A stretch of 32,396 nt of DNA from Spirogloea muscicola (lineage: Eukaryota > Streptophyta > Zygnematophyceae > Spirogloeales > Spirogloeaceae), in contig WELB01000121.1 of NCBI GenBank assembly GCA_009602725.1, positions 131,787-164,182 on the forward strand, given 5' to 3'. Below are positions 8,723 through 32,396 of this stretch, in pieces. The stretch's first letter is position 1, and every line of letters starts with the position of its first letter. Position numbers and translations under genes: made by a program. Under the pieces are notes generated by a model. The model was not told where the DNA came from, searched no databases, and worked only from the letters and a program-made list of their open reading frames with translations.

Positions 8723-9050
8723 GCGATGGCTGCCGTGGCACTGGCAGTAAGCTAACTTTTGCTTAGAGTAACAGGAGTGCGGCTGCCCATTCCAAAAGAG
8801 CGGCAGTAAAAGCTCGAAGTGAAAAAATATACCCAGGGGGAGGCAACACCACTTGAGTAAATTGTTTCAGATAGGAAAAGCAATGCCTCACTGCCTCAGC
8901 TCACGTTTGACATTCATATTTTGTCCCGTGGTTGTTGAGCGGGTCAATCTGCTGTGAGTTATGTAGATCAGAGGAAGCGCTAAGAAACCAAAGCACACAA
9001 AGAAAGAAAGCAGCTACAAATTACTCAGTAACCCCTGCTTCTCATTCGTC
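8721..9050. promoter_or_regulatory. bidirectional intergenic region between NDUFB3 and KRR1
   Basis: These roughly 330 bases separate the NDUFB3 ATG (minus) from the KRR1 5' region (plus), so both promoters are expected here. No coding similarity is seen, and I could not place a TATA box or other defined element. The region is inferred from gene orientation only. Confidence 0.5.
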
Positions 9051-9105
9051 GGCTTTGGACATTGTCCATTCTTTTTGGGCTGGCTTTGCCAGCCCCTCTT
9101 TCTTT

Positions 9106-9116
<11 letters not shown>
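9051..9116 (+). repeat. solo arm fragment of the inverted-repeat element
   Basis: About 65 bases nearly match the right arm of the element at 32326-32390: ggctttggacattgtcc, then the perfect hairpin GGGCTGGC-TTT-GCCAGCCC, then a pyrimidine run and ATGGGCG. No inverted partner was found nearby, so this looks like a solo or truncated copy. Confidence 0.85.
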
Positions 9117-13248
<4,132 letters not shown>

Positions 13249-14177: not shown

Positions 14178-14419
14178 NNNNNNNNNNNNNNNNNNNNNNN
14201 NNNNNNNNNNNNNNNNNNNNNNNNNNNNNNNNNNNNNNNNNNNNNNNNNNNNNNNNNNNNNNNNNNNNNNNNNNNNNNNNNNNNNNNNNNNNNNNNNNNN
14301 NNNNNNNNNNNNNNNNNNNNNNNNNNNNNNNNNNNNNNNNNNNNNNNNNNNNNNNNNNNNNNNNNNNNNNNNNNNNNNNNNNNNNNNNNNNNNNNNNNNN
14401 NNNNNNNNNNNNNNNNNNN
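14178..14419. other. assembly gap, 242 N
   Basis: A run of N separates the CT repeat from the first visible POLR3B codons. The POLR3B start codon probably lies in this missing sequence or just left of it. Confidence 1.
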
Positions 14420-26120
<11,701 letters not shown>

Positions 26121-26516
26121 GAGCTCGAGGATAGAGCCCCGTACATTGTTGCTGCCGAACGGTGCACAGCACGCTTGGCTACTCTTGCTTTCCTTGCTGC
26201 TGGAGGTAAGGCTGAGATGCTACCTTGACTGGACTGGCCTGAGGAGCAACAGCAGAGCTAATGTAGTACTAGTCCCTACTGCAGGTGCTTCACTCCAGGC
26301 GCAGGCTGCTGAGGGGAAACACTGATGCATGAGTTGTTGTGATGCTAGCAGGAGTTGCTTGTCGTGGCTTGAAGGGGTTCAACATGCGAGGGCCAGGCGG
26401 AACAGGTTGGCATGGAGCAATACTGGTCTCTGAGGTCAAGGGCGTGACATGCGTGAAGCTGCCAGCCTAGCTGCCAAGCGGGGGGCCAAATTGAACCTGT
26501 CTTCTCATTTGTTCTA
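26121..26516. other. intergenic region between convergent POLR3B and sulfotransferase-like genes
   Basis: These 396 bases carry both 3' flanks. No coding similarity or clear polyadenylation signal was recognised. Confidence 0.6.
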
Positions 26517-27898
26517 CTATTGAGCAGCAAGGTGCAGCTCCGCTCCGACGTTTGACCACTTCGACAACAAGCTTCTGCAATGAACTGGTTGCTGACGCCT
26601 CATGCTTATGGTGCACAGTGGTGTGCTGAGCTCACCGCCAGCTGCTCTGGCTTACATTGGACTGTAGCCCATGCCCAGGATGGCCTTGCCAAGGGCAGCC
26701 ATCACAGATTCTCGGTTGCCAGCAGTGAAGTGCTGGAGCAAGCAAGCAGTCCAACGCAGTCAGGTCAGATTGTGCGAAGTAAAGACAGCACAGCAAGTAC
26801 ATCAGGCCAGGTCCCCGCAAGGTCGGCGGCCAAGAGAAACTTACACTGCGCCAGGCTCCTATTTCTCGAGCCTGCAGGATGTGCGAGCTGCGGAACAGGC
26901 GCTGGCAGTCTTCTGCAAGAGTACAAGATGTTTGATCAAAGAGCTGTCATTGAACAAAAGCGTGCAGTTGCTGAAGAATCACAGAGACCTACGTGCAAGC
27001 TGGTCTCGCCTTGTGCTCCTCCTGTATCAGCATTCTCCTCAGTCTCCTCCGGTCGTTGTGCCTTGCAACTGGCAACTGGTTCGTCTGCAATCTTGGTAGC
27101 TGCTCTTTGTCTGACTGGCACTTGCGAACTGCTGTGAGGTACATCTCAAGGACGACTGATCTGGGATCTCGAACAATAAGGCTGATGCGAGATGGCCTTG
27201 GTAAAAATAATAGCAAGTCATCAGAATAGTCCTCAATCTGCAAAGCAGCACAAGAAGATTCATCAGAGGGCAAAATTGCTGTGCAAATATGTAGCCCTTG
27301 ACTATGGTGGCCAATAACGACATCACAGACAGCCACTATCTTGTCTGGCCATACGAAGGGTTCAAGACCTGGAATGCATCGTGGCTGCAGCTTATGACCG
27401 CATCTCCACTGTCACCGAAGACCAGCCCTTCTCGTACCGCAAAGCTTCGCAGAGTCTCTCTCCACCAGCCACCACCAGTATTTCGACCGGCCACGTTGAT
27501 TATGATTGGGCGTAGACCTGCTCGCAGGGTGTCACTGCGCCTTTGAATCGTAGACTGTATGCGCACTGGACAGAGGAGGGCAGTAGAGTATACTGCCGAT
27601 GTGTAGACTGCACAGCAGGACATAAGGGTAAGCGTTACAGCAGCAGAGCGATGATCCTGATATACTGATGATGTTTATAGCTTCAGAGAAACAGCAGGCT
27701 GCTAGCAATAGCTGGATCATTGCATCATCTGATATGCATGACAAGGTACAGCACTGATGACTGACCTGCTGCAGAAAGATTGACTTCCTGCGTACTCGCA
27801 TATACCAGGGATAGGCCAATCACGCCGAAGATGCACAATCCGACCAGCACAGAGAAGACTGCTGCAATTTTCGTGCTGCTCTTTGCCCTCCCGCGCAT
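26517..27898 (-). CDS. predicted type II membrane sulfotransferase-like protein, 6 exons
   Basis: This is a gene model I assembled from phase-compatible exons: 27898-27766, 27607-27369, 27237-~27126, 26912-26845, 26732-26656, 26574-26517 (TAG), ~228 residues. Residues ~11-33 form one hydrophobic helix after a basic N-terminus (RGRAKSSTK), as in Golgi type II enzymes. Residues 85-97 (GRNTGGGWWRETL) sit where a sulfotransferase 5'-PSB loop is expected. Residues 141-155 contain RISLIVRDPRSVVLE, resembling the 3'-phosphate-binding motif of PAPS-dependent sulfotransferases, but with E where Ser is usual. The C-terminal REIGAWRSHF...LGMGY block resembles the WR-sHL...lGY end of sulfotransferases. 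The exon 3 donor is unresolved; a GC site (gcaagt) after 27126 keeps phase. No transcript support is available, and a different glycan-modifying enzyme is possible. Confidence 0.55.
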
Positions 27899-28039
27899 GC
27901 CGTACACTGCAAGCGGCAAGATATAGTCCCTGCAGCAGGGCAGAAGCGGTAGCTCGTTAAGATGCGCATGACAGCAATTTACGAGATGTTTTGTGCGCTT
28001 GTGTGAATCATCTTGAAATGATCAGCGCTGGCGCAACGA

Positions 28040-29720
28040 AGCACAGTTGACGTAAAAAGCTTGCCGAGTAGTTACGCGCTACAGGACTTGGTTCGGGCTT
28101 TGCAGACGACGCCCGCACCCATGGCATCCCTATTCCCGCCCAGCAGCCCGCTGCAAAAGCAAGCGCATGATTACCAGCGCCGGCAACCCGAAAATACCGT
28201 CCTGTACCAAACCGTGGCCGAGAATTTGGCCACTTTTGTACAAAACACCGCTGACCAAGGCGGACGCTTGCCTTGGTTTGTGCACCATTCGAGGCCTACT
28301 TGGGCTAAGGCATTTTGGCCAATGGCTTTTTGCGGGTTCGATGTGGCGATTGCGGCCTGGATCAGTTTGTGGCGTCTTCGTGTAAAACAAGGTCCATCTG
28401 CCCATCCTGCGGCGTCCGGCGCATGGAGGACGGTGCGGCGCACATCGTCGAAAACATCCTCCCTCGTGTCCCTGTTCGGCAATGGGTCCTATCTTTGCCC
28501 TTCTGGTTGCGCTTTCGCGTCGCCTACGACAGCAGTTCAAGCAGCCAGGTTCTCGGCCTTTTCATTAAGGCGGTCCTGCGCTGGTACCGTCACACAGCCA
28601 AGAGGCTCAAGGGGCTGGCGTCCGTTAAAGTGGCGCACAGCGGCTCGGTGACCTGTATTCAGCGCTTTCCAGCTCCCTGAGCCTCAATGTGCACTTTCAT
28701 GCCCTGGTCATTGACGGTGTCTACATCGAAGAAGCTGAGGACCGCATACGCTTTTTGGCATTGCCACTACCTACTGTGGCAGATCTCCAAGAGGTCACCG
28801 ACGAGGTATATCGCAAGGTCGCAACATCGCTTGGCATGGCGTGAAGATTGCGGGGAGCCGGGTGGTTTAACTCGCGACGAACCCCTTTTGGCAGCGTGTG
28901 CCACGGCCTCGGTCCGCGGTTGTATCGCCACGGGCGATCGCCGGGGCCACCAAGTCGAGCGCCTTGGGACAAGGGAGCAGAGGTCGCCCCCCAACTTTCA
29001 ACCGAACTGCGCCCAGACCGAGCAGGCGAGCGTGCGCGTAAAAGCTGATGATCGCCGTTGTCTCGAAAGAGTTGTGCGCTACATTTTGCGGCCGCCCATC
29101 AGCCAAGAGCGCTTGGAAAAGCTCGGCGACGGGCCGCTTCTTTACAATTTTAAGCGCGTCTGGTCCGATGAAGCCCGCAGCGTGGTGTTTACTGGGCTGG
29201 AACTCATTGAAAAGCTCGTAGCCTTGGTTCCACCACCCCGCGTGCACCAGATCGTGTACCACGGCGTGATTTCTTCGCATGCACGTCTACGACCCTTGGT
29301 CGTGCCGCGGGACGATGGGCCTCTGACCGAAAAACATGGGCCTTGTCATGCGCACAAACGCACCCGCATGGACTGGGCAATGCTCCTCAAACGCGTATAC
29401 GCCATGGACGTTTTGGTTTGCCGAAATTGCGGCAAAACCATGAAATTTATCGCCGCGATTACCCAAGCAAAAGTGATCCAGGCCATTTTGCGATCTTGCG
29501 AGTTGCCTCTGGCCCCACGCTTGCGCAGACCGGCGCCCTCTCGGGCGTGTCAACAGGAATGGGCCTGGTAAACCAGGCTGCCTACTGCGACGATAGGCAT
29601 TGCGATGAGTCCCCCTCCACCGCGAAGGCGATGCTACGCTCTTCTCTGTTCTTTTGTGAGCTAAGCCGTTGATCTGGCGGTTCATTTTGCCGGAGAAATT
29701 TTATGAACAATCCGCTCTCT
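28040..29720 (+). mobile_element. IS91-like insertion remnant, ends not fixed
   Basis: The transposase relic plus about 150 bases of downstream sequence that keeps a bacterial character, including an imperfect ccg-ttgatct-gg hairpin-like piece near 29669, probably make up the insertion. IS91 elements lack terminal inverted repeats and do not make long target duplications, so neither edge can be set by eye. The boundaries given are estimates. Confidence 0.6.
28061..29571 (+). pseudogene. decayed IS91-family (HUH) transposase
   Basis: Frames spread over all three phases, in order, give a full-length (~500 residues) IS91-type transposase. Frame 2 (28061-~28287) carries SSYALQDLVRALQ and ENTVLYQTVAENL. 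Frame 1 (~28288-28668) carries FEAYLG, an in-frame TAA at about 28303, then the zinc-finger block CGDCG...CPSCG and RQWVLSLPFWLRF. Frame 3 (28668-~28840) carries NVHFHALV, with the HxH of the HUH nuclease. Frame 1 again (~28840-29571) carries RDEPLLAACATASVRG, RVVRYILRPPISQERL, ELIEKLVALVPPPR, YHGV and a second CxxC, VCRNCGKTM. At least three frame changes and one stop make it inactive. The known family moves by rolling-circle transposition in bacteria. No introns are seen. Confidence 0.92.
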
Positions 29721-30315
29721 GCGATTTTCAGGTTTTTAGCGGGCACAGCATATCTGAGGGTTTTCCCGCTTCATTTGTCCTATCAGCCTGCCGCCGCCAC
29801 CGGCCTGTTGTGTGCCGCCACATGGTAAGCTGCCCTGGGAGCTCCCTCTTGATGAGTCTTAGTGGGTGCTGGCATTGGTCCTGGCACAAGCCCCAGGCCA
29901 GCTGCAGCAGCGCTCGAAAAGGGGGGGGGGGGGTGTGGCTGACTTCTCGATCTCATTCTGGTCGTGGGCCTTTGGACGGCCGCCCTGGCAAGAGTGCGTG
30001 CTTTGCATCCACCGCGTCAAGTGCTTGTAGCATTTCGGATGGGGGCATTGGGAGTGGAAGCAGTGCCAGCACAGACAGGCAGTAAAGCGAACAGAAGCAC
30101 GAGGCTGAATTGAGAACAGCCAAGCATGTAGAAAGCGAACGTCAGTATGAGTCGCAAGTGTGCTCAATAGCCGCGCAAAGCAGGCATTTATGGACTTGGA
30201 AGAATGCACATTATGCCTGTGCAGTGTACAAATAAAGTACAAGCAAAAAATGTGGTCCGTCTGCGGGATGGTCCTTGGCAAAATGCATACAGTCTGCACA
30301 AGCAATTGGGTCTGC
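29721..30315. other. spacer between the IS91 relic and the secreted-protein gene
   Basis: This should include the 3' flank of the minus-strand gene ending at 30316. A 13-base G run sits at 29921-29933. No coding similarity was recognised in either strand. Confidence 0.55.
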
Positions 30316-31128
30316 CTAGCAGATGGTGCCTGTCGAGGTAACCAGCAGCGGACAGATTATTTGACCAAAGTCCTCATTAAACGAGCACTTTCCGTTAAGC
30401 TTGATGGAAGTTGATGCTGGAGCTGCGGTGAAGGGGGGCGAGACGGTGACCTGCTTATTCAAGCTGGTGCAAACATCATTCCCATATGTGTCGTAGTTGC
30501 AGCAGCTTCCTGTGACTGTGCATGCCAACTTGAGGCCCGAGACACCGCAAGTTACTGCTGTGTTCTTCACAGAGAAGCAACCACCATCGCCAACAATGCC
30601 CGAATCATACCGCCAGGTGTCGGCGGCAGTTGCACCATTAGGATACAGGTCCTTGGCCTTGCTCACGCAGTGCGTTGTCGTAGCCGTCGCCGTGTCGAAC
30701 TCGACATTGAAGGACGTTGACGTGAAGTAGGAGTTGGCCGTGCATCCTTTCTCAACAGATGAAAAGCAGTAATCGCCGCCGCCGTCGCTGGCGCTGCAGA
30801 GTAGAGTACCAGACAACGGAGGCGGCCGGAGTTCACACTTGGGAAACAGACCAAGATTGTTGCAGCCGCTGATGTCCAGAACGAGTGTCTCTTGTGTGCA
30901 CAAGACCGCTGGTGCTGGCGGCGGGATCACCGGCAAGGGAGGCTTTGGTGCCGCCGGGGGAGGGGTGGGTGGTGGCGCGCGCACTGGCCGGGGGGGACTG
31001 GTGTGGGGCGTAGGGGTGGGCGGATGGTGATGGTGCCCGTGGCCTGCAGGGTGATGGCCACCGTGCTGGTGTGGCTTGCCGTGAGCAGCAAGCACGAGGG
31101 TGGCGAGGATGGCAAGAGCCAAAATCAT
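30316..31128 (-). CDS. secreted Pro/His-rich, Cys-rich protein, intronless
   Basis: A 270-residue protein, likely extracellular. It has a clear signal peptide (MILALAILATLVLAAHG), then a His-rich patch (HQHGGHH...GHGHHHH), then a Pro-rich spacer of PPTPTP/PPPTPPP type suited to hydroxyproline glycosylation, and a C-terminal domain with 16 Cys beginning at LCTQETLV. This layout resembles algal cell-wall glycoproteins such as pherophorin-type proteins, but I could not match the Cys domain to a named family. ATG 31128 is chosen because the signal peptide begins there; an upstream in-frame extension to 31221 lacks such features. The stop is TAG at 30318-30316. One uninterrupted exon is notable among intron-dense neighbours. 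Metal binding by the His patch is possible (inference). Confidence 0.82.
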   Translation of the reverse strand: MILALAILATLVLAAHGKPHQHGGHHPAGHGHHHHPPTPTPHTSPPRPVRAPPPTPPPAAPKPPLPVIPPPAPAVLCTQETLVLDISGCNNLGLFPKCELRPPPLSGTLLCSASDGGGDYCFSSVEKGCTANSYFTSTSFNVEFDTATATTTHCVSKAKDLYPNGATAADTWRYDSGIVGDGGCFSVKNTAVTCGVSGLKLACTVTGSCCNYDTYGNDVCTSLNKQVTVSPPFTAAPASTSIKLNGKCSFNEDFGQIICPLLVTSTGTIC

Positions 31129-31769
31129 GTTCACGAGACTGGGCTTAACCGCTGTGGTTCCTGCAGGATTCCTGCAGCAAACACACTGCATATGAGGAGA
31201 GGCTGGGTAGCGCAGCGACAAACACAGGTGGTCCAGGGGTCAGTCTCAGTGGTGCTTGGAAACTAAGAGGAGCAATGAGCAGGCTCCAATCCTGGCAGCA
31301 AACAGCAGATGAGCAGCTCAAGCGAAAGAACAATGCAACGACAATCCCAGCAGAGCACAACCGCTGCAGCAGGAGAGCGCAGCCGCAAGAACCTCAACAG
31401 ACGCAGGAGGGCTGACAAGTGGGTATCGACCGGCAGGAAGGCGTCGGGAGCCGGGGCCGCCAGCGAGCTCGAGAGCCGCCATTAGCTCGCTGGGAGGGGG
31501 GGCTGGCAGGCTGCAGGAGGCTGGACTGCCCGGGGTTTCGTGCACTCGAGGTCTCCTGCTCTGTCCCCCTCCACCGGTCACGGGGCCCTCCCTCCTCCCC
31601 TCCCTCCTCCCCCCCAGGGCCCTGCGGAGTGAACCACCCGCACACACACGCCAGGCTTGCTCCGGCAGACTGCTGCGACGGTGCTGCGGGCGCGTGCGAC
31701 GCGCAGGCCCGCCAGCTGTGCATGGAAGCTGGAGCGCAGGCATTTCAACGGCCGCGCAGGCACGAAGAT
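31129..31769. other. upstream region of the secreted-protein gene
   Basis: This is presumed promoter and leader sequence for the minus-strand gene starting at 31128. Several overlapping frames exist on both strands, but none has recognisable features. Confidence 0.5.
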
Positions 31770-31927
31770 GTGCGCGCCTATAGAGAAGAGGGGCTGGCAA
31801 AGCCAGCCTAGAAAAGAATGGACAGTGTCCAAAGCCAAAGAAAGAGGAGCCGGAGAAAGGACTACACTACAAAACACTGCAGAACACAGAGACGATGCAG
31901 AGGGAAGCTCAGTACCCACGAGTGAGC
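31770..31927 (-). repeat. left inverted arm of the foldback element
   Basis: This is the reverse complement of 32233-32390. The inner end contains the ctcagtacccacgagtgagc string that mirrors gctcactcgtgggtactgag on the right. Confidence 0.88.
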
Positions 31928-32232
31928 CACGCATTGAGTCAGCGCCGGGGCTGAGGCAGGAAGCGTAGACTTTGGAAGATCCCAATGCTCTGCCAAACGA
32001 GGGGCATCCCGCGCCGTCGCCCGGGGGGGATCCAGGGTAGGGCGGCATGGCCGCACCCACTGAGGTGGCGACGCGCGCCCACCCCCCCGCCCCCCCCCTC
32101 CCCAATACAAGGCGCCAGGCCCGCTGCCATCGCTGCCGCCCCGGCGGCCGGCTTCTTGACTCGTGGCCGTGCCACCCACTCAGGTGGCGACGCGCGGCCA
32201 AGACCCCTCCCGGTCGCCCGCCCGTCGGCCCC

Positions 32233-32390
32233 GCTCACTCGTGGGTACTGAGCTTTCCTTTGCATCGTTTCTGTGTTCTGCAGTGTTTTGTAGTGTAGTC
32301 CATTCTCCGGCTCCTCTTTCTTTGGCTTTGGACATTGTCCATTCTTTTTTGGGCTGGCTTTGCCAGCCCCTCTTCTCTATGGGCGCGCAC
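32233..32390 (+). repeat. right inverted arm of the foldback element
   Basis: Partner of 31770-31927, and same orientation as the solo fragment at 9051-9116. Confidence 0.88.
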
Positions 32391-32396
32391 TTCTCT

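Follow-up and report, generated by a model that had tools for sequence, protein, structure and literature searches.

The window, meaning the whole stretch of 32,396 nt that was analysed, contains a block of DNA from 28033 to approximately 29790 that is probably a bacterial fragment captured in a nuclear genome. The block carries a broken transposase gene of the IS91/ISCR family, found as a single copy, and has a sharp left edge and steps in composition at its edges. The features on which the argument rests are given below; coordinates are positions in the window unless a scaffold label (C3, C67, C115 or C121) precedes them.

20796-23602, + strand: RNA polymerase III RPC2-like gene, exon pieces 20796-20891 and 23462-23602 (PF04567)
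24012-28032, no strand assigned: four-copy host segment, truncated at 28032, with the other copies on C121, C67 and C115 (DNA matches)
28033-29790, + strand: foreign (bacterial) DNA block (end of host homology, CpG steps, C3 match)
28172-29544, + strand: broken IS91/ISCR-like HUH transposase gene (profile matches, frame-aware alignment)
28306-28308, + strand: in-frame TAA stop at a conserved Cys column (22 of 27 alignments)
28342-28410, + strand: N-terminal conserved cysteines at 28342, 28351, 28381, 28399 and 28408 (column check, PF14319)
28669-28671, + strand: -1 frame change, approximate place (24 of 27 alignments)
28692-28700, + strand: HUH nuclease motif H-F-H, H28692/H28698 (column check)
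29062-29097, + strand: LERVVRYILRPP block with RYILRPP and the presumed catalytic Tyr at 29080 (alignment, column check)
29419-29430, + strand: C-terminal CxxC, C29419/C29428 (column check)
29739-29788, + strand: 50-bp stretch, 86% identical to C3:401034-401083 (DNA search)
30316-31239, - strand: right neighbour ORF, Pro/His-rich and then Cys-containing (signal-like start by eye)

The transposase gene and its breaks

Most of an IS91/ISCR-family HUH transposase is encoded in the listed interval, in pieces; with one relative alone (L108), weak similarity begins at 28061 already. The N-terminal zinc domain is recognised by PF14319 (Zn_Tnp_IS91; E 3.1e-13, 50 bits against a cut-off of 26.3) in the frame 28309-28680, and PF04986 (Y2_Tnp; E 9.4e-15, 55.5 bits against a cut-off of 20.9) matches in the frame 28681-29571, covering profile positions 93-179 of 183 only, which is the C-terminal half of the domain. 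The HUH domain has both its HxH and its tyrosine, but the HxH sits in a different frame from the PF04986 match and was revealed by frame-aware alignment. The NCBIfam profile ISCR_clade_Ia (NF052416) was matched in three pieces (73-188, 185-244 and 317-486 of 509) scoring 100.9, 26.4 and 102.6 bits, too low for membership of a family whose whole-protein score exceeds 925 bits; the gene is not only broken but belongs to a deep lineage. The N-terminal cysteines include two CxxC pairs (C28342/C28351 and C28399/C28408), and the zinc, HUH, Tyr and C-terminal Cys residues are all kept, while conservation is poor and the frame uncertain from 28842 to 29035. A LERxxRY motif with one Tyr is common to the relic and four plasmid proteins; this is the ISCR Y1 type. 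The four blocks named in a preliminary description of this DNA (CxxC, HxH, RYILRPP and the C-terminal CxxC) are present.

The open reading frame is not intact. Frame-aware alignment of the relic with 27 relatives, all of them 440 aa or longer, places a frame shift somewhere in 28259-28295 in 21 of the 27 alignments and another somewhere in 28788-28872 in 25, or in 24 if the badly aligned L113 is set aside, in addition to the stop and the frame change listed above. The stop and three or more frame changes, which the preliminary description had also claimed, are seen jointly in 21 of 27, although these alignments are not independent because several relatives are near-identical. Where features are missing, the alignments of L105 and L127 lie wholly to the right of 28306, that of L120 begins at 28288, those of L019 and L114 cover the C-terminus only, and the ORF of L113 is itself frame-changed. 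Introns were rejected as the source of the frame changes: at 28669 one base has been lost, and nothing is inserted where the two pieces meet. Judged from its sequence, the relic cannot work as a transposase now.

Relatives and phylogenetic position

The best frame-aware scores were those of L111 (195 of 449 positions identical) and L108 (210 of 478), both from a phylum sample of 395 genomes around one with a contig titled Desulfovibrio piger. ISVsa3, which is ISCR2 (183/442, 41%), and ISCR1 (177/453, 39%) have the same domain order and motifs as the relic; the relic differs from them in being broken and in grouping with L108 and L111 instead. In the tree these three are split from the 16 other rows with support of 100/100. 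The relic is placed with L111 at 89/72, but its branch is the longest in the tree (2.06 versus 1.16 and 1.13) and long branches may attract, so that this placement carries a warning.

No relative above about 44-45% identity over most of the length of the relic was found in bacterial, plasmid, viral or whole-genome searches. Short pieces reached 45% over 168 aa (L019) and 48% over 93 aa, and in plasmids the best of the matches listed was 49% over 120 aa, with one further record in the 60-80% band. An alignment-based scan of genome contigs gave at least 477 relatives among at least 587 pattern matches, of which 79 loci were kept; among the matches listed these relatives are 36-44% identical and have mostly proteobacterial titles. 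In the corresponding scan of viral contigs 2 of 25 were relatives, two IMG/VR contigs encoding ISCR relatives at 40%. A single-piece query returned no relatives from genome or viral contigs, the genome query peptides having come partly from out-of-frame stretches. Whole-genome searches found relatives in 8 of 8 genomes and, in larger sets, in 43 of 395 at E <= 1e-3 and in 5/398, 2/387 and 15/399 at E <= 1e-20. The DNA of the relic matched 16 plasmid records, those listed being about 66% identical over 12-13% of its length. A distant DNA search of plasmids with 29545-30320 gave one match (E 0.7), the 3' flanks of the relatives showed no similarity downstream of the relic at z >3 among the matches listed, and a 25-base motif had 0 exact matches in viral contigs.

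Helitrons are eukaryotic HUH rolling-circle transposons with a mechanism related to that of the IS91 type. The zinc domain and Y2_Tnp domain of the relic are, by contrast, of the bacterial type, and a Pfam scan of six pieces gave no Helitron or helicase family. Helitron and giant-virus readings of the relic were considered and not adopted.

Limits and setting of the block

The left edge is defined by a host segment with four copies. The copy on the same scaffold (C121:179.9-184.1k) matches 24259-28032 at 93-94.6%, and those on C67 and C115 match at 81-90% and 82-88%, respectively; the query began at 24001, so the latter two may extend further to the left. The three other copies run on jointly for 1.2-1.4 kb, whereas the window copy ends at 28031-28032, directly preceded by CAGCGCTGG. 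Among the 25 places listed for the host continuation only three are long, the other 22 being short repeats, and therefore no orphan half of the segment was found.

The right edge is approximate (about 29740-29830); the searches gave no close donor, so composition and the 50-bp match define it. CpG o/e rises from about 0.65 in host DNA to 1.08 in the block and drops to 0.3-0.5 just past 29800; at the edge itself it falls from 0.99 (29651-29800) to 0.37 (29751-29900). The 50-bp stretch on C3 is the only other match of 29500-31760 in the assembly. An end at 29738 was given up once the DNA around that C3 match was recognised as bacterial-looking. The span proposed at the outset, 28061-29571, was thus correct in location and slightly narrow. 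Candidate tetranucleotide target words of the IS91 type occur at 28012 and 28060 (CTTG), 29648 and 29680 (GTTC) and 29705 (GAAC), with no known ends for comparison. No oriIS or terIS element ends could be recognised, and the predicted fold of 29560-29800 is unremarkable (z -0.45).

Eukaryotic DNA lies on both sides. RPC2 is the best solved match for both exon pieces on the left (E 3.4e-5 and 3.8e-22), which are about 250 residues but 2.6 kb apart and must therefore be separated by introns; these exons, with an 18S rRNA fragment on C33, show a eukaryote. On the right, the ORF at 30316-31239 has no Pfam match, and at 31766 begin repeats that have relatives elsewhere in the window as well as on C121, C67 and C115. 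The 18 kb from 14420 to 32396, which contain the block, are free of N, so that the assembly has contiguous host DNA, with repeats and RPC2-like exons, on both sides. Runs of N occur at 14178-14419 and to the right of the window (10,000 bases and 359 more, possibly a gap), the latter starting 2.6 kb to the right of the block. The claim of a bacterial IS91-family gene set between eukaryotic stretches, with an intron-rich left neighbour, accordingly stands.

Two further repeats were observed in the window. An inverted pair of 162 bp (31766-31927 and 32233-32394, 94% identical) has related sequence at 9034-9125 and in repeats on C67 and C115, and an interstitial telomere-like ACCCTAA array lies at 522-589.

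Other scaffolds had been suggested as places to look for the same relic, but no other copy appeared. PF04986 and PF14319 have one match each in the assembly of 153.1 Mb and 471 contigs (153,112,186 bases), and the DNA of 27800-29900 gave no second copy there in a search that may miss matches.

Age of the block

A CpG-poor, TG/CA-rich host is the expectation when methylated CpG decays. Over 152 overlapping windows of host DNA the means are 0.65 for CpG o/e and 1.34 for TG/CA, versus 1.08 and 1.16 in the block; 28 bacterial relatives range from 0.89 to 1.36 in CpG o/e (mean 1.12). Only one of the 152 host windows reaches the CpG of the block, and it is located in the C3 block described below, which was included in the background. 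Elsewhere host windows extend up to 0.96, with 0.68-0.72 in the right flank of the window, and because GC-rich host windows reach 0.96, CpG alone is not proof. GC content (0.58 in the block, 0.52-0.53 in the left flank, 0.56-0.64 in the right) and tetramer distance (matched or exceeded by 2 of 84 windows, all taken from the left of the block), a comparison of the kind proposed in the preliminary description, are only suggestive.

Protein erosion is mild. Among 19 conserved Arg columns 14 still have Arg, 13 of these as CGN, and one of the five changed columns looks like a CpG transition. Of the 120 columns that do not vary among 15 relatives, 31 are changed in the relic, 23 in L111 and 20 in L108, while leaving out each of the 15 relatives in turn gives 0-9 changes in 124-136 fully conserved columns. 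At 159 columns conserved to 90% the figures are 45, 44 and 33. An earlier column test (17 rows below 90% mutual identity, with L113, L127, L105, L019 and L114 left out) gave 12/88 for the relic, 12/105 for L111 and 10/103 for L108, an uneven comparison because L111 and L108 had helped to choose the columns of the relic. On equal terms, the counts at the 120 and 159 columns show a modest excess of changes over the intact deep relatives.

Since the block is without the CpG depletion of the host and the excess of erosion is modest, the long decay in the alga that was first proposed is not supported. Taken together, mild erosion and unspent CpG would most simply mean that the gene arrived late, when it was already dead or dying, and the death of the transposase gene may have occurred in the bacterium, before transfer. 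The longest branch and the excess at invariant columns would still allow some decay in the host.

A second bacterial-looking block

A stretch of about 10.7 kb on another scaffold (C3:394500-405200), mostly without CpG depletion, is a second candidate bacterial insert. CpG o/e there stays at about 0.9-1.14 except at 399.5-400.25 kb, where it drops once to 0.68; host DNA rich in GC also reaches 0.96, at 385-389 kb. The stretch is flanked by an ORF with a reverse-transcriptase domain and a chromodomain retrotransposon polyprotein. Within it, residues 132-220 of a bacterial-type aspartate kinase of 412 residues are encoded as a piece of 89 aa with 60% identity, and the 25 kb examined contained no further part of that gene. 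The other ORFs scanned had no match at E 0.01 save one below the cut-off (CCDC90-like, E 3.4e-4), and two of the ORFs had no matches in plasmids. The 50-bp stretch common to the two blocks only suggests one donor lineage.

A search for bacterial 16S rRNA gave at least seven partial matches on at least five contigs (5 of 2175 candidates scored). That on C33 is eukaryotic 18S by Rfam. C262 has SSU, tRNA, 5S and 23S-like pieces, and C19, C307 and C79 have 16S-like pieces of about 390-490 bases that are 76-91% alike. The rRNA-like pieces on these four contigs may be organellar or bacterial, and neither prove nor exclude a co-sequenced bacterium.

Origin of the block

The probable course of events is that about 1.76 kb of bacterial DNA with one ISCR-like (IS91-family) transposase gene became part of a nuclear chromosome. 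The most plausible route would be end joining at a double-strand break, with the fragment serving as filler DNA, and this event or a neighbouring one would have cut off the copy of the host segment at 28032. Capture at a break explains the abrupt left edge, the lost host continuation and the single copy. It would have been passive, not by transposition, with a gene dead or dying before transfer and an arrival late on the CpG clock of the host.

The main rival is an artefact of assembly, in which gap filling or misjoining placed a bacterial fragment from the culture between host contigs. Runs of N lie at 14178-14419 and from the end of the window, the left edge coincides with the end of a repeated segment whose missing continuation could mark a misjoin, the CpG of the block is of bacterial type, and partial 16S-like pieces exist in the assembly. 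Bacterial genomes also commonly carry dead or degenerate IS copies, so the earlier argument that decay speaks against contamination is weak. The sharp break in the four-copy segment, the N-free host flanks and the fact that no other copy of the relic was found speak more strongly against a chimera. An artefact requires two false joins around 1.76 kb, neither with N, and a similar bacterial-looking block occurs on C3 with its sole recognisable gene reduced to a piece; it is considered unlikely. Old horizontal transfer followed by long decay in the alga, the preference of the preliminary description, would fit the stop and the three or more frame changes, the long branch and the 31 changed invariant columns, as well as the stop at 28306, which takes two base changes from a Cys codon, if Cys was the ancestral state at that column. 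The lack of CpG depletion, the near equality with L111 at the 90%-conserved columns and the intact zinc, HUH and Tyr residues stand against it, and it appears less probable still than an artefact. A rolling-circle jump of the element from a bacterial replicon into the nuclear chromosome would suit a block barely larger than one element, and since IS91-type elements insert without target duplication the clean edge fits as well. However, no element ends could be recognised and no special fold was seen, a single copy was found, and the missing host continuation means that this was not a simple insertion. Such self-transposition is very improbable, and equally so the version that combines a direct jump of an ISCR-like element out of a bacterial replicon with a C3 block derived from the same donor lineage. 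Passive capture of a bacterial fragment is thus the reading preferred here.

Precedents and significance

There are two precedents. The nuclear genome of Volvox carteri has an insert of about 9 kb of rickettsial DNA (PMC4324946), which resembles the present block in having bacterial, apparently non-functional gene pieces on a green algal nuclear scaffold; it is backed by several strains and phylogenies, while the relic is known from one assembly and its transposase belongs to another bacterial lineage. The Ectocarpus genome also has bacterial-type IS genes (PMC3627910), but these are IS4-type elements with terminal inverted repeats within viral DNA, and are viewed as virus-borne. No report of an IS91-family gene in an algal nucleus was found in the open-licence literature, within the accessible portions of its texts.

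The relic does not demonstrate a working transposon in the nucleus. It indicates that, where reads are absent, the limits of foreign inserts can be drawn from CpG depletion and from duplicated host segments. If reads confirm the block, it would be a bacterial insert in a eukaryotic, probably green algal, nucleus that is datable as late by CpG depletion, and it may share its donor lineage with the larger block on C3.
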